Shown here: piece after piece, positions 495 through 18,129 of the stretch
Layout of the letters: each line of letters opens with the position of its first letter
Numbering within the stretch: position 1 is the stretch's first letter
DNA from: a virus
Strand: one strand, 5' to 3'
Virus record (IMG/VR): IMGVR_UViG_3300010885_014830
Location: 1 to 23,597 of that record
DNA: 23,597 nucleotides
Program-made: the position numbers and the translations under genes
The notes under the pieces: model-generated
Told to the model about the DNA's origin: nothing
Databases searched by the model: none
Seen by the model: the letters and a program-made list of their open reading frames with translations, nothing else

Positions 495-3400
495 TTACCT
501 CTGTAATGCGATTGCTCTAAGCTCGCGCACGCGAGGAGGATTTGATGAAGTTTCGTTGACAAGAACAACCTTGACGGCGAAATACTTAAATCCTACAAAT
601 CTAGCACGATTACTATTACGATATTCTACGATGCTCGAATTGGTTGTATTAGCGCCAGCACGAGCAGTATCAGTGTATCCTGGGATCTTATACGTCATTT
701 CGAAGAAATCTTCACGATTTTCGCTGCTTGAGTAACGAGTTTCGCTAGTGAATCCTTCACTTGTATCACGATCCATTGGGTGCCATTTAGCATCACCAAA
801 TGCGTCGCTATCTTCTGCATTAAGAACCTTATAGTACACTAGAACGTTAGAGTTTATAGGCTTATAAGCAGATAGATACACACGAAGGTCTTCTGCGTCC
901 TGGCCATCAGCCAGAGTTACAGTTCTCGTAATATATTTAACTTTAGCATCACCACCACTAGAAACATGGTCTTCTGTAGACTGAATATTTGTGTTAGAAT
1001 TAATTAAATTATGATTTCCAACAAGAGAAATTCGTTTCAAGTCGATAGCAGGTGAAGCTACGATATTACGACATTCTAGCTCAAACTTAATTGTTGCCGA
1101 GTTTGAAGTAAGCGTAGAAGATTCGGTTGTATAGCTATAGATATAACGAGGCGAAGTAAATTCTGTAGAACCATTAAGATTCAATTTCATATAATCGGCT
1201 ACAACTGATGGTGCTGTTGCTAACTTACCATACGCAGTAATTGTTGTATTTGATGGTAAGATCGTAGAAGCGTAAACAGTAGCATCATCCATTACAATAG
1301 AATCAATTGAACTAATTGTAGCTGTGTAGCCGTTAGTTTGACCACGAAGCGCCATTCCAGAAGTAAAATTCTTTCCTGTTGTAATAGAAGTAGTGTTGAT
1401 GTATGAGCTGTTAGATAAATACAGTTTAGTATCAGTATAATTCGCAGCATCACGCATAGATACTTTACCTACAGGTGTAACAGCAGAAATAATAATTCCT
1501 GTAGAGTTACCTACGATAGTTCCAGTAGAAGCACTATATCCACCAGTACCAACATTAGTTCTAATACGAATACGTTCATTAGCTTGGAACTTATTGTCGA
1601 GTGTTACGTTTTTAACTCTGATCTGTGAAGATGAGAACGAAGTGATAACACCCTTAGCGAGTGAAGTCATTCCCTGAACATACGAAGCACCGTTCGAGAA
1701 CACAGTTTTCGTATTAGCGAATGTGCCACGAATAGTCGTTTCCCCATACACTAGTTCGCCAATACGATTCAGCGGACCAGATTCATCGGAAATCGTAAAT
1801 ATGTCGCGATTTTCGTTCTTAACGATCAAGTTACCAACTGCACTTCTATCAAACTCAGCATAGTAGGCGGTGAATTTCAGATCTTCGTTCTGAATAGTTT
1901 CCCACTTTCTTTCGTTTGACGAAATATGCAATTCACCAGCAGCAGGTTGAGAAGTTACTCGAGAACCTGTGAGTATATCTTCTTCGCCAAGAACAGCTGT
2001 ATATACAGCATAGTTTGGATTATTAGCACCAGGCGCAACAACAACCGAATACTGAGCATTTTCGTTCAGATACACCGGAGATTCAAAATATATCGGCGTT
2101 GCTAATGAACCATCATCACTCACGTTGATTTGTGATGATGGAACATTCACACGACTGAAAGGAATAATCTTAGAAGTTATTACACCAGAAGCAGGATCTA
2201 CTTCTTGCAACTGAACAGTAATGCCTTGAGTTTCGTCTTTCTGAGAAAAGTATAGATCAACCTTAGTCAGATAAACACCAGAGGTTGATACCTTTGTAGA
2301 AAGTAGTCCTGCAACAATAAATGTTTGCGCTAAAGGATCGCTGCTTTCAGGTCTCACCCAGCCTCTTTTACCAAGAACAAATCCTTGTAAACTATCAATA
2401 TTCAAACATCTATTAGTTTTACCTGTTCTTCCAAAAATTTCTATTCCAATTAGGCAACCGTTGCCATCAACCGGCGGTGGCGGCGGTGGAGGTGGAGGTG
2501 GAGGTGGTGGAGGAGGCACATAACCACAAGAAGGTGAATTGGATTGTGTGAGCACAGTTTCATAAGGACCGCCGTTAGCGGTGGTTAAGATAGTCATTCT
2601 ATCATAACCCTCACAATAAGTCGTAATCACAATACCAGCTGGAGGAGCAGGTGGTGGAGGCGGCGGCGGCGGCGGCGGCGGTGGAGGCGGTGGAGGCGGC
2701 GGCGGCGGTGGCGGCGGTGGCGGCGGTGGCCCAGGAGGAGGAGGCGGTGGCGGAGGTGGTGGTGGCGGCGGAGGTGGTGGTGGTGGCGGAGGTGGTGGTG
2801 GTGGTGGTGGCGGAGCAGGTGCCTGAACAAGCACTGTTGGCGTTGTTGATGCAGATCCACCAGGACCAACAGCTGTTACTGTTTCGCTCTTAGTTCCAGC
2901 AGTAGAAAACGGATAAGGCAATGAACCAGAAGAAGAAAACAGCTGAGCGCCGTATGTACTTAGTGTCACATGTGTTGAATTCGTAGAACTCCAAGATAAT
3001 GTTGAATTTTCACCAGTAAATATTACAGCAGGATTAAATGAAGCCGTAACTGTAGGAGCAGGTGGAGGAGGCGGCGGAGGAGCAGCTGCATCGCGAATTG
3101 CTACTGAAGAACTTGTCGCAACAATTGTTCCTCCTGTGCTTCCAGTTCGTAGATATACTACGAATGCTTCTGCATCATCAGAAATTCCGTCACTAAGTGC
3201 TGTTCTATTGATACTGCCACCGCTACCATAAATTGTCACAGTACCGCTGCTAGAACCATCGGTGAAATCTGCAGCTCCTGCGCTTCCTGACGAGGTCCAA
3301 TAGAGTGTTGTTCCATCAGCAATATTCGTAGTCACAACAGAAAATGTTACCGTAGAACCTTCAGTGATTGAAAGCACGTCAGGATAAATTGCATATGTTG

Positions 3401-6400
3401 GTGCTGGAGGAGGCGGAGGTGGTGGAGCAGGCGAAACATATCCGCAATACGGAGCGTTAGCTTGGAATAGAGTTGTAGTTTCTCCGTTATTTCCGTCCGT
3501 ATAGACTGAATATTGATCAAATCCTACGCAAGTATATCTTTTGAATAGACCAGCAGCAATAGGTGGAGGAGGTGGAGGTGGAGGTATAATTCCAACAACT
3601 CGACTACTATCAGCAGAATTTGTGATATTCGTAGAAATTATTTGTGTTTCTGTCATAGAAGAAGCAAAAATTTCTGGAACACGAGTAGATATAGTAACGT
3701 CAGAAACGCCGGATTGTAACCCACTAGCATTATAATCACCTTCAGCTGAAGTAGTGAATGCGCCAAATGCTTCAGTATTTCTTGGATTATCTGTTACTCT
3801 TAGTCTCTTAGTACCTACGTTAAATTTTAATGAAGAATCATTAGGAATTCTAAAGATAAAAAATACGTTGCCTGATGAGTTAGAAAACAGACTTGTGCCT
3901 TCCAAATTTGAAGGAAGCAAAGGAGCATTTGTGTTGGGATTTTTCAGACGAGTATTGTACTCTGATTCTGTCAAAGGAGTTATGTATGTGCTAACCAATT
4001 TGCTATCAAAGAAAACGTACAAACGACTAGAAGGTTTTAGAGAAGACCCCTTAACAAAAATTTGTTTAGAACGCATAAAAGGTATAAGCGTTTGATCAAC
4101 TATAACTTGTCCAGCTGAAGAAGTAGAAGTCGAACCTACTCGACCTGGCTTATATGTTGTGCGTGTCTGGGTGATTGGTGTAGTTGTAATAGATTCTGTT
4201 CTGAAACTTTCAACAATTTGTTTAGTACCATCAGCCAGAGTTTTCATTTCTGTTCCGCTGATAATATCTTGAGAAGCAGATGTTACAGGCACACCAACAA
4301 ATGAATTTTGCCATGCGCTTGGTTCTGTTTGCCAAGAATTCTGCATGTAATTCCAATTGTCTTGCGTGTTTTCTACTGGTACAGTTATAGCTGGTCGTGT
4401 TGTTGTGTCGAACCAATAATCATTATTGGGGTCGAGTGATAATGTACCTTTCCAGTTATATGAAGAACCAGAACAATTTCTTGTTGTAGTTCCGTATGGT
4501 TGTTGAGCAAAAACTTTATGAGAATACGGTAATGTTACTAGATCACCAGCTGAAATTCCTGTAACAGCAGAAATAGTACCTGTAACGGAACCGTTTGTTA
4601 CAGTTCCCCCGACAGCAAAATTACCTGTAGCATTCTCGATATAAAGTTTTGCTCCAACTTTATATCTTAGATAAGCAGTATTTCCACCAGAACTTACTGT
4701 CATACCAGCAGTGAATGCTGGAGTAGAAGAAGTAAGAGTTACGATTTGATCACGCGATACACCCGTAGGCGTTACGTTCGTACGAACAACATGAGTAGAA
4801 CCAGATGACCATGTTAGTTCTGTATTATCTACAGAAACAAGAGGACCTAATTCACCCTTAGCGCGATTGATAGAAGCCTTATAATCTAAATCAAATACGT
4901 TTGCGATATTCGTGCCGTTGAATGCGTCTACAAGAATACCATTTTTGAAACGATCTAAACCATTATCGTCTGGGATCATCAGATCTTTAGAATTCTTTTC
5001 AAGTAGGGTTAGTGAAGTTAGATATTCCAGGCGATCAATACGGTCGCGCAGAACACCAATATCTTTCATGGTGAAGCGTTCGTTCTTAAGGCGCTTGATA
5101 CTGTTTGTTAAATCGGGACGATTGATCTGACGACCAACTTGTTCTGAAAGTGAAGGATAAGGCGCAAGAGAAATAACTGCTAGAGACATAGCATCATCTG
5201 GCGCATATGGTGTTATAGGATTAAGAGAAGGTACGCCTTTGGTTATATCTATCGCACCTTCCTTGGTGATAGAAACTACGTCTTTTCTCTTTAGATAATA
5301 CGAAAGATCTGTTGTGAAATCTTGATTAGGGGGAGAATGATGCAGTCCTGTCACACCGCCAGATTGGAAACTAGTAGTGCCGATAGGATTTAAAGAAACA
5401 CCAGAAACTGTTGCATATACAGAATTAGCAGTATCAGAAACACGAGGACGGATGTCGATACAATTTCTTAGATCGTATGTAACACCGTTTGTCGGAGAAG
5501 TGAAAATCGGAATTTCATATGTGTAAATTTTAGTGCTGTCTACTCCAGCATTTGTATCGTCTATTGGATAAGAATTTACAGAAAAATATCCTACGCCAGT
5601 CGAATAGCTGTGTGTGAAATGATCAATAGAAACAAGCAAACGATCTGTACTCGTCAAACCTCCAGGTATTTGTGCGCCTGGTTTCTTAACAAGTTTCGCA
5701 TGATCATAGTATGTGTCTTTCATACCAGTATCAATAGTAAAGTATTTGGTTACATCTTCACCATCTGCTGTGGTTGCGAAATTAGAACCAGTCAAACGAC
5801 GAACAGAATTGAGTTTAAATCCATCAGAAAGACCTAGAGGCCATGGACCTGTTGTGTTTCCAGCATACGAACCAATACCTAGTGATTTAGTGTTACCTGT
5901 TCTGATAAGAACCAAACGATCACGTGCGACAAGTTTAGCAGCTTCTTGCCCATCAATCTTATTGAGCGTAGCGATAACTGTAGCGTTTAATGAAGAACCT
6001 AGAGTTTCGCTTAGTGCAAGATCTGCTTGACGCGAAGGAGTACCTGAAATAGAAATCGTACGATTACCATTTTTACCGACGCCCGCAAAATCTAAAACCT
6101 GACCAGACTTAAATCGCTTGAAATAAGGCATATTTGTTTTAGAAGCTACAACTGTTCCGAAAACCTGCAGCTGTGTATCACTAACAACTCTACTTACGAC
6201 ATAATCTCCACTGTTAGCAACAGCAATAATATCGCCAGGATTTACTTGAGTAGTAAACGCAGTTCCAGTACCACCGAAAGCATTAATTGTGTTTCCTGCA
6301 GTTGTTACGCTAACTGTGCCAGTAAGAGCAGCAGAGTTGGCAGTTCCGCGGGAAACAACATAAAAATCTGTACGAGTAGCATCATCACCTAAAGTTCCTG

Positions 6401-8087
6401 AACCGTCAAATGTCTCGGAATTCGTTCCACTGTTAATTGTTGCTGCACCAGAAGTGTTAAATGTAACATCAAAAGAACGATAAAATGAGAAATCGTTGTT
6501 GATACTACCAGCTGTGTTACGAACAGTTTTAATAGCATTTGCAGGGAGACGGAAAACTCCACGATCAAACGAAGGATCAGTTAAAGCAGCATTAGTTCCG
6601 TCAGAATTTAGTATATCAGCTTTACCTTTAGAACTACCACCAAACATCAAGCTCTGAACTTTGGTAAAGCTCTGACGAGCATTCATCTTGATATCTGTTA
6701 GATAAAACTTATATTGTGCGCTGGGTAAACCAGGAGTTCCGCTGTAGTATTCTACTCCGCGCACGCGAGCCGTGCCAATTTCATTTCCTGAAAGAGCAGA
6801 AGTAGAATAGCCTCCACCACTGATTGCATTCGATTGGCTATCGCGAAGAGAAATTACACTTTGTCTATCTAGATCCCATAATCCAACGACGTTGTCGCAA
6901 ATTACATAATTGCTATAGTCGATAAGAGCTTTTGCCGATTCGATAGATTCGAAATCTGTAGCCTTAGTGATAGTTTTTCTAGACGATACGATTTTTTCAA
7001 TATCGTAACCTTTGATATACGCTTTACCTTCACTGAGATTAACCGAAAGCTTTTCTGCGCTTCCTCCTACATAATTTTCAATCAATCCTCCATTTTTACC
7101 TGATTTCAAATGTTCTTGTATAGAAACATTAAAACCTTTTACGATGTAGTCACCAGATTCGTCGTATGTGCGTTGAGCCATATAATCACGAATGGCTGCA
7201 TAAGAAGGCTTAGTAGAAACAGACTGAACCAAACCATTGTCGACCTGCATCAATTCGATGAATGTATTTGACACTGCAGTTGTCAATGGGACTGCTTTGA
7301 TGGTAGCTTCTAGCTTGAGACGAGCCGCACCTGGAGCAGAATAGTTATAGGAACCTTGTGCTGGGTCTAATAGCGTGTCGTCTGTTTGTTCGGTAACAAT
7401 TGTTTCGGTGATGTCAAAACCAACACGAACAGAAGGATACTGCGAATACTTATCCAGAATAACAGTCTGTTCGGGAACTCTGATGAAATGGTCTTTAGCG
7501 TAAACAATACCCGCGCCAAACTTAACGGCAGCACCTTGTCCGCCGGGAAGACTGTTATTATTAGACTGAGCGGCAGTAATTGTATTGGCTGTTAATAGCG
7601 GAAACCCTACAGCTGTTATGATTTCGTTAGCTTTGAAATATCTATAATCGGTTGTTGTATTGGCTGCAATAAATTTAATATGGAATGTCTTGAAACTAGG
7701 ATTGTTAGATTCTGAGCCAGTAGAAACATTAACAACTTCAGCTAGAACACCAGAATTAGCACCCTTAATGACTTTACCTAGAAAATCAGACACATTAACT
7801 GTATTTGCACCAGTAGAATTCTTATCTCTAATTTTTACATAAGCATAATTTGGGTCGTAGTTCATTTCTAAACCACGAACAGTTGAACCTTCTTTGAAGA
7901 TATGACCCGCAAAACGATCAATCTGATTCTGAAGAATAGATTGCATCTGCGTAAGTTCGCGAGCCTGTACAGCCAATCCTGGACGAAACAGAATTCTATG
8001 GAAATTCTTTTCTTCATTGAAATCATCGTAGTATGGATCTACGTTGAAATTTGTTGAGAGAGTTACGTTATTAGCTTCTGCGGCCAT
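495..8087 (-). CDS. Giant DUF4815-type virion protein with polyproline-linked modules (2530 aa)
   Basis: Residues 1-90 (YYDDFNEEKNFHRILFRPGL, AVQARELTQMQSILQNQIDR) match the DUF4815 family of structural proteins in T4-like phages, probably at the baseplate periphery or fibre base. The core continues to about residue 1500 and includes a conserved-looking LIPFMRSKQIFVKG...LYVFFDSK segment. Residues about 1505-1872 form an accessory insert: P8, a Cys module (YTCVGFDQ...YCGYV, about 1516-1552), P7, a Calx-beta-like domain (about 1566-1666), P7, an Ig-like domain (about 1676-1752), P27-G-P27 (about 1758-1812), a second Cys module (YCEGYDRM...SCGYV, about 1817-1856) and P15. A DPLAQTFIVAG domain resumes near 1916 and continues to the end. 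A copy of a small module shared with two neighbouring proteins lies near 586-656. The start follows a weak GGTAGG site, 13 bases after the preceding stop. Host-contact function is inferred. Translation of the proline runs should depend on host EF-P. Confidence 0.9.
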   Translation of the reverse strand: MAAEANNVTLSTNFNVDPYYDDFNEEKNFHRILFRPGLAVQARELTQMQSILQNQIDRFAGHIFKEGSTVRGLEMNYDPNYAYVKIRDKNSTGANTVNVSDFLGKVIKGANSGVLAEVVNVSTGSESNNPSFKTFHIKFIAANTTTDYRYFKANEIITAVGFPLLTANTITAAQSNNNSLPGGQGAAVKFGAGIVYAKDHFIRVPEQTVILDKYSQYPSVRVGFDITETIVTEQTDDTLLDPAQGSYNYSAPGAARLKLEATIKAVPLTTAVSNTFIELMQVDNGLVQSVSTKPSYAAIRDYMAQRTYDESGDYIVKGFNVSIQEHLKSGKNGGLIENYVGGSAEKLSVNLSEGKAYIKGYDIEKIVSSRKTITKATDFESIESAKALIDYSNYVICDNVVGLWDLDRQSVISLRDSQSNAISGGGYSTSALSGNEIGTARVRGVEYYSGTPGLPSAQYKFYLTDIKMNARQSFTKVQSLMFGGSSKGKADILNSDGTNAALTDPSFDRGVFRLPANAIKTVRNTAGSINNDFSFYRSFDVTFNTSGAATINSGTNSETFDGSGTLGDDATRTDFYVVSRGTANSAALTGTVSVTTAGNTINAFGGTGTAFTTQVNPGDIIAVANSGDYVVSRVVSDTQLQVFGTVVASKTNMPYFKRFKSGQVLDFAGVGKNGNRTISISGTPSRQADLALSETLGSSLNATVIATLNKIDGQEAAKLVARDRLVLIRTGNTKSLGIGSYAGNTTGPWPLGLSDGFKLNSVRRLTGSNFATTADGEDVTKYFTIDTGMKDTYYDHAKLVKKPGAQIPGGLTSTDRLLVSIDHFTHSYSTGVGYFSVNSYPIDDTNAGVDSTKIYTYEIPIFTSPTNGVTYDLRNCIDIRPRVSDTANSVYATVSGVSLNPIGTTSFQSGGVTGLHHSPPNQDFTTDLSYYLKRKDVVSITKEGAIDITKGVPSLNPITPYAPDDAMSLAVISLAPYPSLSEQVGRQINRPDLTNSIKRLKNERFTMKDIGVLRDRIDRLEYLTSLTLLEKNSKDLMIPDDNGLDRFKNGILVDAFNGTNIANVFDLDYKASINRAKGELGPLVSVDNTELTWSSGSTHVVRTNVTPTGVSRDQIVTLTSSTPAFTAGMTVSSGGNTAYLRYKVGAKLYIENATGNFAVGGTVTNGSVTGTISAVTGISAGDLVTLPYSHKVFAQQPYGTTTRNCSGSSYNWKGTLSLDPNNDYWFDTTTRPAITVPVENTQDNWNYMQNSWQTEPSAWQNSFVGVPVTSASQDIISGTEMKTLADGTKQIVESFRTESITTTPITQTRTTYKPGRVGSTSTSSAGQVIVDQTLIPFMRSKQIFVKGSSLKPSSRLYVFFDSKLVSTYITPLTESEYNTRLKNPNTNAPLLPSNLEGTSLFSNSSGNVFFIFRIPNDSSLKFNVGTKRLRVTDNPRNTEAFGAFTTSAEGDYNASGLQSGVSDVTISTRVPEIFASSMTETQIISTNITNSADSSRVVGIIPPPPPPPPIAAGLFKRYTCVGFDQYSVYTDGNNGETTTLFQANAPYCGYVSPAPPPPPPPAPTYAIYPDVLSITEGSTVTFSVVTTNIADGTTLYWTSSGSAGAADFTDGSSSGTVTIYGSGGSINRTALSDGISDDAEAFVVYLRTGSTGGTIVATSSSVAIRDAAAPPPPPPPAPTVTASFNPAVIFTGENSTLSWSSTNSTHVTLSTYGAQLFSSSGSLPYPFSTAGTKSETVTAVGPGGSASTTPTVLVQAPAPPPPPPPPPPPPPPPPPPPPPPPPPPPGPPPPPPPPPPPPPPPPPPPPPPPPPPPAPPAGIVITTYCEGYDRMTILTTANGGPYETVLTQSNSPSCGYVPPPPPPPPPPPPPPPVDGNGCLIGIEIFGRTGKTNRCLNIDSLQGFVLGKRGWVRPESSDPLAQTFIVAGLLSTKVSTSGVYLTKVDLYFSQKDETQGITVQLQEVDPASGVITSKIIPFSRVNVPSSQINVSDDGSLATPIYFESPVYLNENAQYSVVVAPGANNPNYAVYTAVLGEEDILTGSRVTSQPAAGELHISSNERKWETIQNEDLKFTAYYAEFDRSAVGNLIVKNENRDIFTISDESGPLNRIGELVYGETTIRGTFANTKTVFSNGASYVQGMTSLAKGVITSFSSSQIRVKNVTLDNKFQANERIRIRTNVGTGGYSASTGTIVGNSTGIIISAVTPVGKVSMRDAANYTDTKLYLSNSSYINTTSITTGKNFTSGMALRGQTNGYTATISSIDSIVMDDATVYASTILPSNTTITAYGKLATAPSVVADYMKLNLNGSTEFTSPRYIYSYTTESSTLTSNSATIKFELECRNIVASPAIDLKRISLVGNHNLINSNTNIQSTEDHVSSGGDAKVKYITRTVTLADGQDAEDLRVYLSAYKPINSNVLVYYKVLNAEDSDAFGDAKWHPMDRDTSEGFTSETRYSSSENREDFFEMTYKIPGYTDTARAGANTTNSSIVEYRNSNRARFVGFKYFAVKVVLVNETSSNPPRVRELRAIALQR
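2649..2813 (-). repeat. Triplet tract encoding P27-G-P27
   Basis: Read on the minus strand in frame, this tract is 27 Pro codons, one Gly codon (GGG, plus positions 2730-2732), then 27 Pro codons. The codons mix CCG, CCA and CCT, including one run of seven CCG at 2661-2681. The plus strand is nearly all G with one other base per triplet, so it is a local GC spike and a G-quadruplex candidate on the template strand. Shorter Pro tracts occur in the same gene near 2472-2516 (15 Pro), 3060-3082, 3406-3430 and 3563-3587. Confidence 0.95.
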
Positions 8088-8100
8088 GGATACCTACCAA

Positions 8101-9903
8101 TTAAAAATTAATGATGACTTTAACGTCTTCTGTTTGTTCTAGCGCTCTACTAACAGGAGCTCTGTTTTCAGTATATATTACTAATCCGCTGTACTTTTTT
8201 AGAGCACCAGAAGTGACTGATTGCACGTTAGCAATTCTGGTACTAATAGAACCCTGAACGATTTCACCTATTTGAAACGAACCGCCTGTTCCGTTTGTTG
8301 TGATTCTAATTAATTTTAAATCACCCTTAGTTCTTGCACTATCAGTATTCGCGAAATATACTAAACGACCTTTAGCGCCACTCGACAACCCAGTTACTAC
8401 TTCGTCTGCAACAAAATCACCAGAAACTTCATTCACATTTACTCGTGTCGTCTGATCTAATGTAGAAACAGTAGCAGCAGAACCATTAGCTAACAATGGG
8501 TCACGCATAATACCGATTAATCTGAAATCGTTATTTGTAGGAAACGTATTAGATTCGGCTCCAGAAACTCGAATATTCATTAAAATACTAGTAGCGTACA
8601 ATTCATCGACCGGATCACTGCCGTGCCCATTTCTAGGGGAAATTATAGCACGAGCAGTAGCACCATAACCATGTGATGAATTAGCACTAATCGTTACGTT
8701 TGCAGTAGAATATGAACGACCCTGATTAATCATAGTTATCTTACGAACTCGACCAGCGAATGTATTAGATACGTATGCGTCCGAGCGAGATAACAAAGTG
8801 CCACCACTATCGCCTCGTATAGTGACCAAAGGAGAAATTATATATCTACTTGATGTGGTAGGTGTACTAGTGAAAGCAGAATTTACAATACAATAATTGT
8901 TAGAACCATAATACTTAACGATTTTACGGACTTCACCTGAAGCGGGACCAGAACTAATAAAAAGCCCAGAACCATTATACACACCATCAACAACACTAGC
9001 GTCTGTTTTTAATGTAAATGCGGATTTACTAGAAACAGAAGCAAAAGTATTTGTTGTAGTTAAGTAATTAGCACCGTTCGCAATAACTTTAATGTAATGT
9101 ATAGCACCATTAGCAGCAGATGTCTGAACATCCCACTGATCACTACTATCATCAGCTGCTAGAGTTTTAACAGGGATAAAATCCGTAGTTAGAAATTTTA
9201 GTGCGCTGGCAGCAGTTATTGTATACATATATTTCCAACGATAACCATCAGTAGTAGAAATTATATCGTTGGTTACAACTCCAGTTGGTTCTACAGTAGA
9301 TGCAGAATTTCTATTATTTTCAATACACTTATATACATTGCCTGCTGTTGTAGTAACATAATACTGCTTTTCATCAAGAATAGGATCTAAGTCATCATAT
9401 TCAGCATATGATGTGCCAGATATCCATTTATTTCTAGCAGCAACATGACTAACATCAGAAAACTGAATGCGTTTAGCCGCGATCATGTTTCGCCAAATAT
9501 CAAAATAGGTGTCTTGATATCTATCCACTGGAGCAATAGGCGTATAGTCTGAGTATGGTAAACGAACATATAGATTAGCACCTACTGTGGTTGTGGTAGT
9601 AGGTCTAATAGCAGAAATAAATGTTTGCGCGTTAGGTATAGAATGCACTCGCAAATCTTGTGAAGTGCCAGTAACTCGTACAATAGCTCCATTAGTCAAT
9701 TCAGTATCAAAATACGTTCCGCTACCAACAACTGTATTAGATGTGCTGGTTATTTTTACTGTTCCTCTTGTAGGAACAGCATTTGCAGAAGCGTAATTCT
9801 TACCGATAAAATAGTAATATCGAGTAGAAAGAGCTTCATTGAAAGATTCATAAAACTGAATCGCGTTGTGAATCCTAAAATGATGAGTTACTATAGCAGT
9901 CAT
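8101..9903 (-). CDS. 8: Baseplate wedge protein gp8-like (600 aa)
   Basis: The N-terminus (MTAIVTHHFRIHNAIQFYES) and the segment TTDGYRWKYMYTITAASALKFLTTDFIPV resemble gp8-type baseplate wedge proteins of T4-like phages. In T4, gp8 is 334 aa and forms a dimer in each wedge together with gp6, gp7, gp10, gp25 and gp53. This copy is much longer. Residues about 45-115 are an inserted module (GTVKITSTSNTVVGSGTYF, VRVTGTSQDLRVHSIPNAQT) that has a sister copy in the 1152-aa wedge protein. C-terminal residues about 350-600 are beta-rich and Ser/Thr/Gly-rich. The ATG at 9903 shares a base with the stop of the preceding gene (TAATG) and has no clear ribosome site of its own, so translation is probably coupled. 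The family call is from recognition; the extra modules are directly visible. Confidence 0.8.
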   Translation of the reverse strand: MTAIVTHHFRIHNAIQFYESFNEALSTRYYYFIGKNYASANAVPTRGTVKITSTSNTVVGSGTYFDTELTNGAIVRVTGTSQDLRVHSIPNAQTFISAIRPTTTTTVGANLYVRLPYSDYTPIAPVDRYQDTYFDIWRNMIAAKRIQFSDVSHVAARNKWISGTSYAEYDDLDPILDEKQYYVTTTAGNVYKCIENNRNSASTVEPTGVVTNDIISTTDGYRWKYMYTITAASALKFLTTDFIPVKTLAADDSSDQWDVQTSAANGAIHYIKVIANGANYLTTTNTFASVSSKSAFTLKTDASVVDGVYNGSGLFISSGPASGEVRKIVKYYGSNNYCIVNSAFTSTPTTSSRYIISPLVTIRGDSGGTLLSRSDAYVSNTFAGRVRKITMINQGRSYSTANVTISANSSHGYGATARAIISPRNGHGSDPVDELYATSILMNIRVSGAESNTFPTNNDFRLIGIMRDPLLANGSAATVSTLDQTTRVNVNEVSGDFVADEVVTGLSSGAKGRLVYFANTDSARTKGDLKLIRITTNGTGGSFQIGEIVQGSISTRIANVQSVTSGALKKYSGLVIYTENRAPVSRALEQTEDVKVIINF

Positions 9904-10490
9904 TAAGCAGAAGCAGTATAAGTTACGTTAAGTGTGTCGCCAGCAGTAACAACCTTATCGCCTACTGTGAACAAACCAGCAGAATATAGGGTTCCTGTTG
10001 AACCGGCCTTAGTAGCGTTGTTTGCGATGAACGCACCCTTAACAGTTCCAGCAACTGTGATTGTGAACACAACAGCATTAGAAGTTGCTTTAGAACCAGC
10101 TGAAGCAGCAGCGAAAGTGACTGCACAACGATTTGTCTGATTATAACCAGGAGCACGACCACCCTGAGCACCAGATTCAATCCATCCAGTATGCGAAGAC
10201 ATTGTGTCTGCAGCAGAAATGGCTGAATAACCATTAGCAGCAATCAAACCCATATACATCTGAGTTGTTTGCGAACCTACGCCTGTTCCGCTTAGATAAG
10301 CGTTTAGAATGGCATTCTTACCTGCAGTCGTTACAGTGTTAGGAAATTCATCAGCCCACTTTACTCGACCGTTTGCATCAAGACAAACAGCTGTGTATGT
10401 GCCGTGCAAATCTACAGATTCAGCCGAACCTGCGCCACGAGTTACGACTACGCTAGTAGAATCACCTGTATTAATTTTTTCGATAGACAT
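9903..10490 (-). CDS. Putative accessory or decoration virion protein (195 aa)
   Basis: The sequence (VDLHGTYTAVCLDANGRVKW, VTTAGKNAILNAYLSGTG, MYMGLIA, AADTMSSHTGWIE, GTVKGAFI, LYSAGLF, GDTLNVTYTASA) matches a phage virion-protein type that I know from podoviruses and other tailed phages, where it is usually annotated only as a hypothetical or structural protein. It is small and Ala/Gly/Thr-rich, with no Trp-rich or enzymatic motifs. It is preceded by an exact TATAAATA late promoter and AAGGGAG, so it starts a transcription unit and may be made in large amounts. It sits between the gp7-position and gp8-like genes, where T4 has no gene, which suggests horizontal insertion. The decoration or fibre-accessory role is inferred, with no direct sequence proof. 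Confidence 0.75.
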   Translation of the reverse strand: MSIEKINTGDSTSVVVTRGAGSAESVDLHGTYTAVCLDANGRVKWADEFPNTVTTAGKNAILNAYLSGTGVGSQTTQMYMGLIAANGYSAISAADTMSSHTGWIESGAQGGRAPGYNQTNRCAVTFAAASAGSKATSNAVVFTITVAGTVKGAFIANNATKAGSTGTLYSAGLFTVGDKVVTAGDTLNVTYTASA

Positions 10491-10521
10491 CTTAATAGTA
10501 CTCCCTTGGGTTAGGTACGTT

Positions 10522-10529
10522 TATTTATA
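10522..10529 (-). promoter_or_regulatory. T4-type late promoter (TATAAATA)
   Basis: The minus strand is an exact TATAAATA in the 53-bp gap between the 1152-aa gene's stop and the 195-aa gene's start at 10490. The distance to the ATG is 31 bases, leaving room for a short leader with AAGGGAG (10501-10507). T4 late promoters are read by host RNA polymerase carrying the phage sigma gp55 with gp33 and the clamp. An equivalent sigma in this phage is inferred. Confidence 0.8.
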
Positions 10530-10543
10530 ATACGAAAAGATAG

Positions 10544-13500
10544 TTAGAATGGTTTAATTGACGAACTTTGTGTCACTGAACCAGTATTAGTTACGATATT
10601 AACTGCACTTGCGTCGATTGTTGGTGAATCTCCCAACATTAGATATTTCGTGTTTGGTATATTTGGTAGAGGTACGAAATTCGGCACTGTAATTGTTGTT
10701 GCGGTTGGGTTGTATACTGCTGTTCCTACAACTACTCGTAGGTTTGTCATATATCCAGGCCATGATCTTAGATAAGAAGCACCGATTCGTTTTGTGGCTC
10801 CAATATAATTTATGGAGTTAGTTAATGTTCCAGTCGAGCTACGAGTACCATTTAAGAACAGTGTTTCTGTAGTTCCTGATCTGACTAGAGCGAAATGATA
10901 CCATGTGTTTGCAGACATCGCTGGAACAGTATATGCCTTTTGACCTAAACCGCCATTGCCATCGCTAGTGAACGTTGTGCTGTTAGACACAAACAGATTT
11001 ATTGGTCCGACTGTGGTATCCCCTGTTATTGCTCCTAGTATCGAATAGGCGTTGGTGAAATCTGGTAGTCTAATCCAACCTTCGATAGTGTATGAACTAT
11101 CGTTCAGCGTGAATCCTGTATTAAGATCCAACATACGTGTTTCAGCAACACCGCCTGGGAAGCTCAAGCTACCGGCTACAGAATTACCAACATATACTGT
11201 ATCGTCAAGATTTAGAACAGGAGTTACGAATTCACTAATTTGTGTAGACTGATATACTGAAATCTGTACTGAAGCATACGGAGTAATTGCTCCGTTGTTT
11301 TCGGTTATTGCTCCGCTCGTTCTGTTAGCACCAACAACAGAATCTGTTGAAGTAATCGTTTCGCTTATGGAAGCACCAAGAGTTACTAGAGCACCAATAG
11401 AATCTGTCGGAGTTACTGATTCGGCTCCTGTAGTTGCACTCGTTACTACACCACCAACAACAGAATCGTCTGAAGTAATAGATTCGCTAGTTTCAGCTGA
11501 AGTTACTCCGTAGCCTATAATAGAATCTGTTGATGTTATAGATTCAGTGATCACTGATGGGATTGAACTAATACCAACAACTGAATCTGTTGATGTTATA
11601 GATTCAGCGAAACTCGCGATAGCTCTATTCGTACCAACAATAGAATCTGTAGCGGTGAATGATTCATCGTAAGCAACATTCTTGGTAACATAACCAACCA
11701 TAGTGTCTGTTGCTGTAATTGATTGGGCGCCAGTATCGAGTTCACCACTGGTGTAAATGCCTGCAACAGAATCTGTTGTTGTTATCGACTGAGTTCCAGT
11801 GTTTAGGTCAGATACATATGTCGCGTCATTTGTATTTGTTACAGTTATAGATTCTGTGCCAGAAGTTAGATTTACAGATCTGTAAGTTCCGTTAACAATT
11901 TCAGTTGCGTCAACTGATTCTGTTGTTGTAGCAACAGCTTTGTTAGTAGAATTTAATGAATCTGTAGCACTAATCGATTCGTTATATGCAACATTCTTGG
12001 TAACATAACCAAGCATAGATTCTGTAAGAGAAATCGTTTCTGGACCTAAGATACCACTAGTGACTCTAGCACCAACAACTGTGTCTATTATTGAAACGCT
12101 TTCGCTTAAACTCAATGCGAATATGCTTGACTGCGTTAGTGTTGTTAATGCTGGTGTGTTAACAGTTGCATTGATTTGATAATCAGCGAAAAGTTTTGTG
12201 CCAGAAGGATGTACTAGTTTTCTAACAACATCACGATACTTTTCTAGCAGTTCCGTTACACGAATAACATACGAAAATTCTTGATAATAGAAATTATCTT
12301 GGAGCTTATTATTCCATGACAAGAAACCTTTAGTGTCAACATATTTTCCAGGATAATTGGTAACACCTGTTGGTTGCGCCAATCCTTCACCGCTATAGGT
12401 CTTTTTCTGTATTGTGTATTTCGTAGCAGCAGCACCACTCACAGAACGACCAGCATGACTAGTAGTGAACGAACTATTTCCCTGAGTAGTATTCAACATA
12501 TAGGCTGCAGAATATTTGTTAAAATTAGAACCTCTAGTTAATATGTTAAGTTCTGCAATTTCACCAGTTATTGTATTCGCAACAGCAACAGCATTTCTAC
12601 CTAGATATCCACCATATCCGTCATCTACATTTAATTTCGTAATTTCATCATCAATGATAGTGATCGTAGGAATAGTTGTATAATTTTTTCCTGGATTGAT
12701 GATAGAAATCGCATTGATCATATAGAAACTCGCGGTGCTATATGTTAATGCAGACGCGAGCGTAGATGAAACATTAGCCGCAGCCAATTTACTATAGCCG
12801 TTCGCGCGAGCATTTACGTTTGTTCGTGCAGTAGAAACGAATGTTTGCGCACCACCAATAGAATGAACTCTAAGCGCTGTACTAGATCCAGTGATACGAA
12901 CAATATCACCAACAGCTAACTGAGAAGTGAATGCGCTACCGATACCATAAACAGTATTCGTAGAGGTTTTTGCTTTTAATATACCTGTTAATTTCTTAGT
13001 CACGGCAGCTGTATTAGCACCTTTACGAACAAAAAAGTCCGAATCAAGGCGAACGTTTTTCATATTCCCAATAATATCAGAATTCAATGCAGTAGGAATA
13101 GCTTCTGGATAATAAGAAGCAACAACAATTTCTGTTCCTGTGCCATCACCATTTACTCGAACACGAGTGTTGTTTTTAGTGTATCCAGATCCACCCTTGA
13201 CAATACGAGCAGTTATACCTGTTGCTTCTTTAACTCTAGTAACAATAGCTGTAGCTGTAGAAGTCGAACCTGCTCCACCAATTTCAATTAAATCGCCTGT
13301 ATTATGGCGCGAACCGCCTTCTGTTATGTTGAATTGTGTGACAGGACCAATTTGCGCACTAACGGTAGCGTAATTATTGTTATCGTCGAATACTCTTTCG
13401 CCATCAACGAATGTTCCGTCGATGCTTTCTACCGTCATGTCGTAAATAATCATTCCAGAAGAAATGGTAGAAACTACTCCCTGAACAACAGCAGTTGCCC

Positions 13501-14002
13501 CAGAAACAGCACCTGTTACTTTAATACCTCCGAACCCTGAAGGATTAATGTTCTTAGGTTCGCCGACACGAAGCTTTGACTCTCTGAGCCAACGTCCGTC
13601 AGACGCACGTAGAATATCATCGCCTGGATAATAGAAATCTACTTCTTTATTGAAAAGCGCACGAAATAGAAAACGATACGATTCTGGAGTACCTCGAGAT
13701 TTATAAAAATCGCGAATATTCTTAATCAAAAGGCGTTGGTCTACAAGAGCGTCCTTTGGTATACTTGGCATAAGTTCGCGACGAAAATATTCAACAAAAG
13801 AATCTAATGTTCTGTCAATATCACGATAATCACTAAGAGAACGTGTTGCGTTAACAACCTTACCGTTCTGTTCCATATACTCAAAATATGCTTTCAGAAA
13901 CGAAACGAATTGCGGTCCTTCTTCGCGAATAAACCCAGGAAACTGAGATTCGATTTGAGAAGATAATTTCTTAAATGTTTCGTTTGCGCCAGCTATTGCC
14001 AT
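10544..14002 (-). CDS. Giant baseplate wedge protein (gp7 position) with repeats and LamG end (1152 aa)
   Basis: The N-terminal ~150 residues (FPGFIREEGPQFVSFLKAYF, EYMEQNG, RGTPESYRFLFRALF, VDFYYPGDDIL) are typical of a large wedge or structural protein that follows gene 6 in T4-like phages of the cyanophage group. T4 gp7 occupies this position and is 1032 aa, but I cannot prove homology. Residues about 150-340 are Gly/Thr-rich beta repeats. Residues about 344-400 hold the module shared with gp8 (NTVYGIGSAF, LRVHSIGGAQTF). Residues 634-900 are 13 tandem copies of a 20-aa unit, ESITSTDSVVG-x9. Residues about 945-1150 look like a LamG/concanavalin fold (YTIEGWIRL, WYHFALVRSG, ETLFLNG, GYMTNLRVVVGTAVY), usually carbohydrate-binding. 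The ATG is in a TAATG overlap with gene 6. It probably links the wedge to a sugar-binding tip. Confidence 0.82.
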   Translation of the reverse strand: MAIAGANETFKKLSSQIESQFPGFIREEGPQFVSFLKAYFEYMEQNGKVVNATRSLSDYRDIDRTLDSFVEYFRRELMPSIPKDALVDQRLLIKNIRDFYKSRGTPESYRFLFRALFNKEVDFYYPGDDILRASDGRWLRESKLRVGEPKNINPSGFGGIKVTGAVSGATAVVQGVVSTISSGMIIYDMTVESIDGTFVDGERVFDDNNNYATVSAQIGPVTQFNITEGGSRHNTGDLIEIGGAGSTSTATAIVTRVKEATGITARIVKGGSGYTKNNTRVRVNGDGTGTEIVVASYYPEAIPTALNSDIIGNMKNVRLDSDFFVRKGANTAAVTKKLTGILKAKTSTNTVYGIGSAFTSQLAVGDIVRITGSSTALRVHSIGGAQTFVSTARTNVNARANGYSKLAAANVSSTLASALTYSTASFYMINAISIINPGKNYTTIPTITIIDDEITKLNVDDGYGGYLGRNAVAVANTITGEIAELNILTRGSNFNKYSAAYMLNTTQGNSSFTTSHAGRSVSGAAATKYTIQKKTYSGEGLAQPTGVTNYPGKYVDTKGFLSWNNKLQDNFYYQEFSYVIRVTELLEKYRDVVRKLVHPSGTKLFADYQINATVNTPALTTLTQSSIFALSLSESVSIIDTVVGARVTSGILGPETISLTESMLGYVTKNVAYNESISATDSLNSTNKAVATTTESVDATEIVNGTYRSVNLTSGTESITVTNTNDATYVSDLNTGTQSITTTDSVAGIYTSGELDTGAQSITATDTMVGYVTKNVAYDESFTATDSIVGTNRAIASFAESITSTDSVVGISSIPSVITESITSTDSIIGYGVTSAETSESITSDDSVVGGVVTSATTGAESVTPTDSIGALVTLGASISETITSTDSVVGANRTSGAITENNGAITPYASVQISVYQSTQISEFVTPVLNLDDTVYVGNSVAGSLSFPGGVAETRMLDLNTGFTLNDSSYTIEGWIRLPDFTNAYSILGAITGDTTVGPINLFVSNSTTFTSDGNGGLGQKAYTVPAMSANTWYHFALVRSGTTETLFLNGTRSSTGTLTNSINYIGATKRIGASYLRSWPGYMTNLRVVVGTAVYNPTATTITVPNFVPLPNIPNTKYLMLGDSPTIDASAVNIVTNTGSVTQSSSIKPF
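11303..12103 (-). repeat. 13 tandem 20-aa (about 60-bp) repeats, ESITxTDSvvG type
   Basis: Thirteen units can be aligned, each starting with [E/Q][S/T][I/V/F][T/S/D]x[T/I/D][D/E/N]. Landmark bases recur at plus positions 11341, 11401, 11464, 11524, 11584, 11644, 11704, 11770, 11836, 11898, 11959, 12019 and 12080, a period of 60 bp with occasional additions of 3-6 bp. The middle units are nearly identical at DNA level, suggesting expansion by recombination or slippage, while the outer units have diverged. Confidence 0.9.
11673..12012. repeat. 25-bp exact direct repeat pair inside the 20-aa repeat array
   Basis: The same 25 bases (starting GCAACATTCTTGG on plus) occur at 11673-11697 and 11988-12012, 315 bp apart. 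They encode GYVTKNVAY in units 2 and 7. The spacing equals five repeat units plus 15 bp, which fits duplication of a five-unit block after the basic array formed. Confidence 0.9.
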
Positions 14003-16387: not shown

Positions 16388-17839
16388 TCAGGCGTTAGTA
16401 ATAGCTTTAGCAGCCCTTTCAGCCATATCAATAATATGCAAAGCTTCTGCCACAGTTGTGTTAGACTTTATCTGTGGATATTTCTTTTTCATATCAGCAT
16501 AGCTCATAGAAGTGAGTTTACTATAGTCTGTCATCTGTTCCAGTTCAGCCATATGCTTTTCGATTTTAGCAGCAAGCTCTAGTCGTTTTTGTTCTTGTGC
16601 TAACAATTGTTGGTCGCGACCATATCCACCAGCGCCCCAGTTAACTGTATTCGCAGTATTTGTTAACTTCTGTTCGCCGTATGAAGTTTTTGCAGGTCCA
16701 CTATTAATTAGGTTCGTTTGAGGTGCGATGGTTGACATCATCCCCATAAAAGCAGATAAAGGTTGAGTCAATGTCGCTAGAGTACCTCCAGCAGCTGCTT
16801 CGGCGAATAGATTTTTCATCTGTAATGCTTTAACAGGTTTTGCTGGATTAGCTGTTTTCTGAGGTTTAATAGCGTTTGCTGTAGGAGTTTTGCCTGGAAT
16901 AGGGAGCATTTTCATTACTCCTCCAGCCAAATTCATATTCGGTATCATTGTATTTAGATTGATTCCGGCACCTGAAGCTGCTCCACTAATCATTTTATTC
17001 GCTATAGCATTCACATTTATCATAGGAAATTTCGCAGCAATTCCAGCTGCTGAAGCTGCGAATGCGATAGGATTACTTGCTAAACCAGCAAGACCAGCAA
17101 CCTGACTCTGAAGATTAACAACATTCTTAAGAGCGTCCGCTCCAGGAATATCAGACAATAGATTTCCATTAACAGCTTTAAATAATAAAGCAGCTGGTCC
17201 TTTTACTTGAGCAGTTAAGTGAGCTTTAACACCAGCAATTTGTCCTGCTATATTATGTGCACCTGCTGCGGCTGCACCGACTCCTCCTGGAAGTCCTGGG
17301 ATTCCAGCTGTAACTGCTCCCATAGCACCTTTCATAGCTTCCATAGGACCATCCAATCCAGGAGGCACAAAACTTTTTGCTAATCCTGTTAGTGAAGATA
17401 AACCACCACCAAGAGCACCTGCAGCTGCACCAGCAGCACCTCCTAATGCGCCTCCCAAAGCTCCTGCAGCAGCTCCTCCTAATGCATTTGCTGCTCCGCC
17501 TAATGCTCCAGCAGCTCCAGCCAATCCGGCGGCTCCAGCTAATCCACTAGCGAAATCTGCAGCTTTTGATGCGGCATTAAGAGTCGCCAATCCTTTCATC
17601 ACATTTGGATCTATTTGAAATGTTGGAGGTTTAAATCCCATAGGATTTGCGAGCATAGCTGCAGCATTTGCTTTATTAATCATGTCTGGATGTTTCATAC
17701 TCAAGTCATCAATCATGTCTTGAATTTTATCAGCACCTTTGTACATGATTTGCTGACCATTAATTGTATACATTTGTCCTGGAACTGCGTCTGGAAAAGC
17801 AGTTGCTATTTTATAATCTTGCGATACTTGATCTACCAT
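16388..17839 (-). CDS. Gly/Ala-rich hydrophobic protein of unknown function (483 aa)
   Basis: The start is taken at 17839 (MVDQVSQDYKIA) because it forms a TAATG overlap with the PAAR gene and has AGGTGG upstream; a longer reading to 17887 would overlap PAAR by 49 bases. Residues about 1-85 are soluble-looking (PGQMYTINGQQIMYKGADKI). Residues about 90-160 are almost pure Gly/Ala/Leu (GLAGAAGLAGAAGALGGAAN and similar), and residues 160-330 stay hydrophobic and Gly/Ala-rich. Residues about 330-400 are Lys/Pro/Ala-rich and then mixed. Residues about 410-483 form a charged helical end (LAQEQKRLELAAKIEKHMAE, MSYADMKKKYPQIK). I recognise no family. Its place directly after the spike tip suggests a virion protein, perhaps tube-lumen or membrane-active. 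That role is inferred only. Confidence 0.85.
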   Translation of the reverse strand: MVDQVSQDYKIATAFPDAVPGQMYTINGQQIMYKGADKIQDMIDDLSMKHPDMINKANAAAMLANPMGFKPPTFQIDPNVMKGLATLNAASKAADFASGLAGAAGLAGAAGALGGAANALGGAAAGALGGALGGAAGAAAGALGGGLSSLTGLAKSFVPPGLDGPMEAMKGAMGAVTAGIPGLPGGVGAAAAGAHNIAGQIAGVKAHLTAQVKGPAALLFKAVNGNLLSDIPGADALKNVVNLQSQVAGLAGLASNPIAFAASAAGIAAKFPMINVNAIANKMISGAASGAGINLNTMIPNMNLAGGVMKMLPIPGKTPTANAIKPQKTANPAKPVKALQMKNLFAEAAAGGTLATLTQPLSAFMGMMSTIAPQTNLINSGPAKTSYGEQKLTNTANTVNWGAGGYGRDQQLLAQEQKRLELAAKIEKHMAELEQMTDYSKLTSMSYADMKKKYPQIKSNTTVAEALHIIDMAERAAKAITNA

Positions 17840-18129
17840 TAACCACCTGCGAATACGTTTGGAGAACCTGCAGCAACAGAAGTGCAACCAGAAATTCCGT
17901 CACCAATTCTACCGACACCTTTACCGTTTGCGAAAACAGTAGTAGAACCAGTTGTGATAGCTGCTGAATGGGACGGACAAGGAGCACCAGGAAGTAGATG
18001 TGAAGTGTTTACGTCACCTTGACGACTTACGCCTATGCCGTTTATAAACACGTCTGAAGATTTTCCTTGCCTAGTCATTCCCGAACAATGAGCAACGTCT
18101 GCGTCACCAAATCTAGTTACTGCTGGCAT
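17839..18129 (-). CDS. 5.4: PAAR-domain spike tip protein (96 aa)
   Basis: The whole protein is one PAAR domain, the metal-stapled cone that sharpens the tip of contractile-tail spikes (T4 gp5.4, 97 aa) and type VI secretion VgrG spikes. Family features are MPAVTRFGDADVAHCSGM, the PCPSHSAAITTGSTTVFANG block, and GKGVGRIGDGISGC. Likely zinc or iron ligands are H14 or C15, H44, C51 or H54, and C82. The gene overlaps both neighbours as TAATG and has a good ribosome site (AAGGGAAAAG). It follows the needle gene and precedes the Gly/Ala-rich gene, as expected for a hub-spike unit. No toxin or effector extension is fused to it. Confidence 0.93.
   Translation of the reverse strand: MPAVTRFGDADVAHCSGMTRQGKSSDVFINGIGVSRQGDVNTSHLLPGAPCPSHSAAITTGSTTVFANGKGVGRIGDGISGCTSVAAGSPNVFAGG

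Follow-up and report, generated by a model that had tools for sequence, protein, structure and literature searches.

Contig IMGVR_UViG_3300010885_014830, a virus sequence of 23,597 bases with a G+C content of 40% (the whole stretch analysed, hereafter the window), raises the question of why a phage protein should carry two runs of 27 prolines joined by a single glycine, and whether these are a pair of equal rigid rods hinged at the glycine, as originally predicted, or part of a linker of changing length. Translation of the minus strand gave P27-G-P27 at window positions 2649-2813 exactly, and the four further proline runs of 7-15 residues noted in the same protein were found to have 8, 7, 7 and 15 residues. 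The exact P27-G-P27 reading is thus confirmed, the rod-and-hinge interpretation is weak, and a variable linker at a reusable baseplate site is the likely explanation.

From its profile matches (Table 1), the 2530-residue product of the proline-run gene is assigned to a T4-like phage as a baseplate protein of the DUF4815/VrlC type. The gene directly follows a gp8-like wedge gene (8101-9903; Phage-Gp8, Pfam, 46.4 bits, cut-off 25), and the baseplate families matched by the window genes include a tube cap, wedge subunits, hub and spike pieces and a PAAR protein in addition to this gp8-like wedge protein. In isolate genomes, the gene before the homologue is annotated as a baseplate (wedge) protein in 10 of 10 records, with the label gp8 in two, and the homologue itself is annotated as VrlC or VlrC, adsorption-associated tail protein, neck protein or hypothetical protein. 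The prediction that the prolines belong to a phage structural protein is therefore borne out by the DUF4815/VrlC match beside baseplate wedge genes. The wedge gene before gp8 (10544-14002) has a concanavalin-like lectin domain near its end (Laminin_G_3, 50 bits, cut-off 27.6), with numerous ESIT/TDS repeats ahead of it, and an Ala/Gly-rich frame of 499 residues lies between the hub and wedge genes (16388-17887), with no match to PHROG (E 0.01) or Pfam (E 0.1).

Table 1. Positions in the window of the proline-run gene and of the parts of its product, the latter in order from the N-terminal end
Feature	Positions	Strand	Basis
Gene for 2530-aa DUF4815/VrlC-type baseplate protein (assigned), single open frame	495..8087	-	Pfam PF16075 183.6 bits (cut-off 30), PHROG 358 1171.2 bits
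Conserved N-terminal part, residues 1-1497	3597..8087	-	blastp: L003 57% over residues 1-1482; L006 34.5% over 5-1496
P8 run	3561..3584	-	Translation
Small two-Cys module copy 1 (putative), ends CGYV	3426..3560	-	44% identical to copy 2; no Pfam match
P7 run	3405..3425	-	Translation
Calx-beta-like (by eye) module	3081..3404	-	tblastn: 11 phage records, 28.7-41% identity, E up to 1e-3
P7 run	3060..3080	-	Translation
Ig-like (by eye) module	2814..3059	-	47.5% identical to L005; weak PHROG 2155 match E 6.5e-4
P27 run 1	2733..2813	-	Translation; DNA identical in L002
Single Gly codon GGG	2730..2732	-	Translation
P27 run 2	2649..2729	-	Translation; one extra CCT-CCA-CCG unit in L004
Small two-Cys module copy 2 (putative)	2517..2648	-	44% identical to copy 1
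P15 run	2472..2516	-	Translation
Conserved C-terminal part, residues 1917-2530, starts DPLAQTF	498..2339	-	blastp to relatives; first-domain fold measured on L003

Comparison with relatives by blastp showed that all six proline runs are confined to an insert of approximately residues 1498-1916, between two conserved parts, in the order P8, two-Cys module, P7, Calx-like module, P7, Ig-like module, P27-G-P27, second two-Cys module and P15. We take the two larger modules to be Calx-beta-like and Ig-like from their appearance by eye, and the two-Cys modules share the pattern C.G.D ... CGYV. A Pfam search yielded no match for the Calx-like module up to E 5, and a DUF7933 match to the Ig-like module (14.3 bits, below the cut-off of 26.5) was the one sub-threshold match for the four modules at this threshold. 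Prediction of the fold of the modules, which had been proposed together with the rods, was carried out with AlphaFold, and the resulting model was poor (mean pLDDT 41) and not usable, so the Calx-like, Ig-like and two-Cys folds are putative. By tblastn, the Calx-like module was found again in 11 phage records, including cyanophage structural and hub proteins, as would be expected of a roaming surface module. The Ig-like module is also present in a near relative, L005, where it adjoins a run of at least 23 prolines; a phage search with this module at E 1e-3 gave nothing, and neither did one with the second two-Cys module alone at E 0.01. When viral contigs were scanned with the stretch containing the Calx-like and Ig-like modules, one of 14 candidates was confirmed, and this was the window's own phage.

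At the DNA level, 54 of the 55 codons of the tract are CCN, which at the window's G+C content of 40% is not due to chance. Tandem Repeats Finder identified a period of 9 with 16.6 copies and 78% matches at positions 2653-2804, so the tract consists of degenerate 9-bp units in tandem. The third bases are mixed across its codons, which indicates that the array is not brand new and is still compatible with slippage. The seven consecutive CCG codons singled out as possibly recent are present. The codon mixture, which had been read as a sign of selection on the protein, is also there, but the argument built on it is weak in both directions, as a degenerate 9-bp array allows slippage.

Several other signals in the tract were considered and set aside. 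Differences restricted to third bases within the runs are a circular sign of selection, as a proline run consists of CCN codons by definition. The idea that run 2 duplicates run 1 was rejected, since their third bases agree at only 8 of 27 positions in register, and phase switching by slippage is unlikely because the 9-bp unit preserves the reading frame. None of the 91 codons within the runs is CCC, compared with 7 of 95 elsewhere (Fisher p 0.014), but no codon selection is claimed on this basis, given that CCC, which accounts for 71 of 1165 run codons in 32 viral proline-run proteins of at least 300 residues (a set that includes L144, the window's own phage), is also missing in 12 of the 32. 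Tests for a period in the third bases were weak, the best value (run 2, lag 3, P 0.007) being uncorrected for nine lags in three sets.

The same phage was found in a second assembly. Contigs L002 and L004 (the latter 3300027782_000347), both from metagenome 3300027782, matched the window with zero mismatches over 14,390 and a further 2,678 bases, respectively. However, both terminate within the proline tract, so the exact run lengths in the assemblies, including that of the window, are uncertain. Run 2 has three CCT-CCA-CCG units in L004 versus two in the window (+9 bp), at the end of the contig; this would imply run lengths of 27 and 30 if the missing 5' part of the run is unchanged, and it may be an assembly error. 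A search of the viral collection for records with both exact flank patterns returned only these two contigs besides the window, a result from which near records are possibly omitted. In L005, with a C-terminal part 85% identical to that of the window, the run of at least 23 prolines precedes the Ig-like module and a P7 run follows it, which is the reverse of the window, where P7 precedes this module and P27-G-P27 follows it. L004 also contains, downstream of the VrlC gene (4109-6853), a 914-residue Gly-rich fibre-like protein with GNPG/GTAG repeats, perhaps a second extended low-complexity adhesin. The tail-fibre region is followed by five frames (6874-10426), which we presume from motifs seen by eye to encode enzymes of the ATP-pyrophosphatase and oxygenase types.

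That three contigs (L002, L004 and L005) end within such a tract, and that 22 of 122 listed CCN tracts lie within 30 bp of the end of a stretch, not necessarily that of a contig, could point to an assembly artefact, with a true tract that is shorter, longer or out of frame. We nevertheless consider this improbable, as two assemblies agree in run 1 and keep an open frame on either side of the tract, and long runs recur in two other relatives, L112 and L256.

The extra unit in L004 also bears on the symmetry about the glycine, which the original prediction called striking and which we reject as a signal on the evidence of a second assembly with one more 9-bp unit in run 2. Two uninterrupted runs of 27 with a single glycine between them are what would be expected of length-selected polyproline-II rods and a hinge that serve the baseplate as a ruler or lever on the molecular scale. 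However, the additional unit, the reversed arrangement around the Ig-like module in L005 and a full-length relative devoid of proline runs (L003) all argue against a fixed pair of equal rods. Nor was conservation of run lengths, for which a comparison with relatives had been proposed, observed: the lengths differ in L004, L005 and L256, and L003 has none. The rigid rod of about 84 angstrom proposed for each run would hold for an all-trans helix only. One simulation study describes polyproline chains as stiff, yet cites NMR evidence for cis bonds, which it models as kinks (PMC3101224); free polyproline of this length can thus carry cis kinks. We therefore regard the ruler or lever as very improbable, even more so than an artefact.

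A comparison of relatives placed the insert at a well-defined junction. In the best-aligned relatives (blastp), the N-side alignment ended at residues 1480-1499 and the C-side alignment mostly started at 1909-1919; in others, the N-side ended earlier, and C-side starts at 1889, 1893 and 1937 were also seen. The span from the AE to the DPxxQ motif was determined for 13 of 15 sequences, the search motif being absent from L262 and L293, and extended over 467 residues in the window, 157 in L256, 124 in L257, 90 in L265 and L266, 84 in L263, 74 in L270, 73 in L264, 71 in L258 and L259, 61 in L003, and 57 in L260 and L261. As the relatives differ at the junction, the length of the linker is not fixed, and its composition also varies. 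L258 and L263 share 97.0% identity on each side of the junction but differ in their linkers (PPTPTDGGGCGGGGCGG in the former and a Gly-Asp-rich linker in the latter). L003, which is 57% and 51% identical to the window protein in its two parts, has the linker DNGCGGSD and no run of five or more prolines. L270 has P7 followed by glycine, and the span of L256 includes proline runs of 6, 11, 5, 8, 9, 13 and 8 residues. In the DUF4815 protein of L112 (187.7 bits), P25 precedes EEDDDPLAQSF; the more distant L009 and L018 carry Thr-Pro repeats at the junction, and the isolate Stenotrophomonas phage vB_SmaS-DLP_6 (DLP6) has a Pro-rich linker, a PKD domain and P9 there.

The gene itself is broken at the junction in L006, L007, DLP6 and L013. 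In L289, L291 and L310, the C-terminal part starts at about position 4001 as a separate frame whose M or MK immediately precedes a PIAQTF-like motif, so these further lineages also have the gene split at precisely this point. The VrlC-like gene of L006 (region 8640-11736) and the first VrlC frame of L007 close at the junction with a Hint-like stretch, for which the Pfam matches in L006 were sub-threshold. Four small frames precede the separate C-part gene in L006; judging by eye from their motifs, we take them to encode two oxygenases, a dehydrogenase and an acetyltransferase.

Structural comparison located this junction between folded domains. A profile built from 33 relatives and aligned to the DUF4815 protein of phage phi812 matched it to either side of this point (45.3 and 116.2 bits); in phi812, the aligned residues stop at 786 and resume at 791, leaving approximately four residues, versus 446 between the matching points in the window. 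In a model of L003 that spans the junction (mean pLDDT 79.3, from 33 sequences), a first domain predicted with confidence leads into an extended stretch of intermediate confidence; ten residues with a pLDDT of 38 then mark the junction itself, and a second domain follows. The model was similar to phi812 (Foldseek E 1.4e-9). The C-side domain of this model superimposed on phi812 with Z 20.3 (rmsd 1.8-1.9 A over 151-152 residues), and the two domains together with Z 17.5 and an rmsd of 30.3 A, so the placing of the domains relative to each other differs between L003 and phi812. According to this model, which is of L003 and not of the window protein, the junction is predicted to be a domain boundary.

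Long proline runs appear to be a rare exception in the family. A first scan of 38 loci, many of which fall short of the junction, yielded six with a run of at least five prolines; two of these were the window's phage, and three (L013, L014 and L035) look like one protein. In two further scans (the best 80 of at least 595 and the best 80 of at least 542 relatives), such a run was found within 450 residues before the junction in three of 160 loci; in five of the 160, the frame covers fewer than 100 residues of that stretch. One of ten isolates has four or more consecutive prolines in the DUF4815/VrlC protein, and nine lack such a run. With runs so rare (three of 160 loci and one of ten isolates), a need of this phage for long proline runs is not indicated. 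Beyond the family, a scan of viral contigs for 25 consecutive CCN codons was evaluated on 120 stretches among the matches listed (at least 120), and proline was the longest reading in 53; of these, 35 had runs longer than 27 and 32 had frames of at least 300 residues, L144 being the window's own phage, although not all 53 may be phage genes or real proteins. With single runs of up to 62 among these listed stretches, 27 prolines in a row are no record. Among the papers listed in literature searches, none concerned long proline runs in phage baseplates, judged by titles and the beginnings of abstracts in a collection that omits most subscription papers, and the papers retrieved for DUF4815 were unrelated by title.

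The absence of proline runs from 157 of the 160 loci is also what would be expected if the tract were a neutral product of slippage, without function and tolerated in a loose loop at the junction, and both the tandem 9-bp array and the difference in unit number between assemblies fit with such an origin. The circular third-base pattern is no argument against it. However, two distant relatives, L112 and DLP6, also carry Pro-rich linkers at this junction, and the alternation of proline linkers with modules, in DLP6 as in the window, would not be explained by blind expansion. We thus consider a purely neutral origin unlikely, while giving it more weight than the other alternatives.

The runs might also hold up the ribosome in a programmed way, either to set the timing of folding or to restrict how much protein is made, and production would then depend on the host EF-P. 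Ribosomes stall at two or more prolines in a row unless EF-P relieves the arrest (PMC11611912), and host EF-P therefore probably matters for making this protein, as originally predicted. As the purpose of the runs, however, pausing seems improbable, for two prolines already cause a pause, making 27 unnecessary, and relatives with Gly-rich linkers would have no long pauses.

In our opinion, P27-G-P27 is probably the longest piece of a hypervariable low-complexity linker at one DUF4815/VrlC domain boundary, an interpretation supported by the proline runs at the same junction in L256 and L112. The degenerate (CCN)n array would gain or lose whole 9-bp units with the frame kept; such a change is seen as the difference between two assemblies, and slippage or unequal recombination may have produced it. 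The possibility that the +9 bp, read from a contig ending in the tract, is an assembly error counts against the linker. Proline would be kept by selection as an extended, soluble spacer, with the runs holding the two two-Cys, the Calx-like and the Ig-like modules away from the baseplate, and these modules would probably contact the host surface or neighbouring fibres, leaving the flanking folded parts undisturbed. 

More tentatively, and with slightly less than even confidence, we suggest that the DUF4815/VrlC junction may be a general display site of contractile-tailed phages, loaded repeatedly with spacers (Pro, Gly or Thr-Pro), adhesion-type modules or gene-splitting Hint-like ends, the drift of its length by tandem units leading to a fast-evolving host reach. 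A proline curiosity thereby becomes a testable statement on the place in the baseplate at which T4-like phages vary. Should the junction indeed be a display site, comparison across phages would link modules and spacer lengths to hosts, and such phages, with their long proline runs, would offer a natural probe of viral reliance on host proline-translation factors.

Among known systems, the DUF4815 baseplate protein of the Staphylococcus phage phi812 (PDB 9euf, 9eui and 9euj) has the same Pfam family name as the window protein, but is 1152 residues long rather than 2530, with the minimal junction described above. VriC of Ackermannviridae phages, a baseplate-side protein with a similar annotation name, has been likened to the phi812 and A511 baseplate proteins, its role being speculative in that report (PMC11721090). 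The VlrC of DLP6 (KU682439, L163) resembles the window protein in having a Pro-rich linker, a P9 run and a further stretch at the same junction, and differs from it in its shorter runs, in a PKD domain (PKD_4, 35 bits, cut-off 27) in place of the Ig-like and two-Cys modules, in a Gly run and a Hint-like end (by eye), and in having its C-terminal part encoded by a separate gene. The protein of L112 (viral contig 3300030104_005275) likewise has P25 and other Pro-rich stretches directly before DPLAQSF, but its insert is shorter and no module was recognised by eye between the runs. Finally, the phage adhesins S16 gp38 and Bxb1 gp33 and gp29, described as Gly-rich polyproline-II bundles (PMC13243192), are, like the window protein, phage surface proteins, and make use of polyproline-II helices; their bundles are Gly-rich and packed, with solved structures, whereas the window protein has free proline runs.
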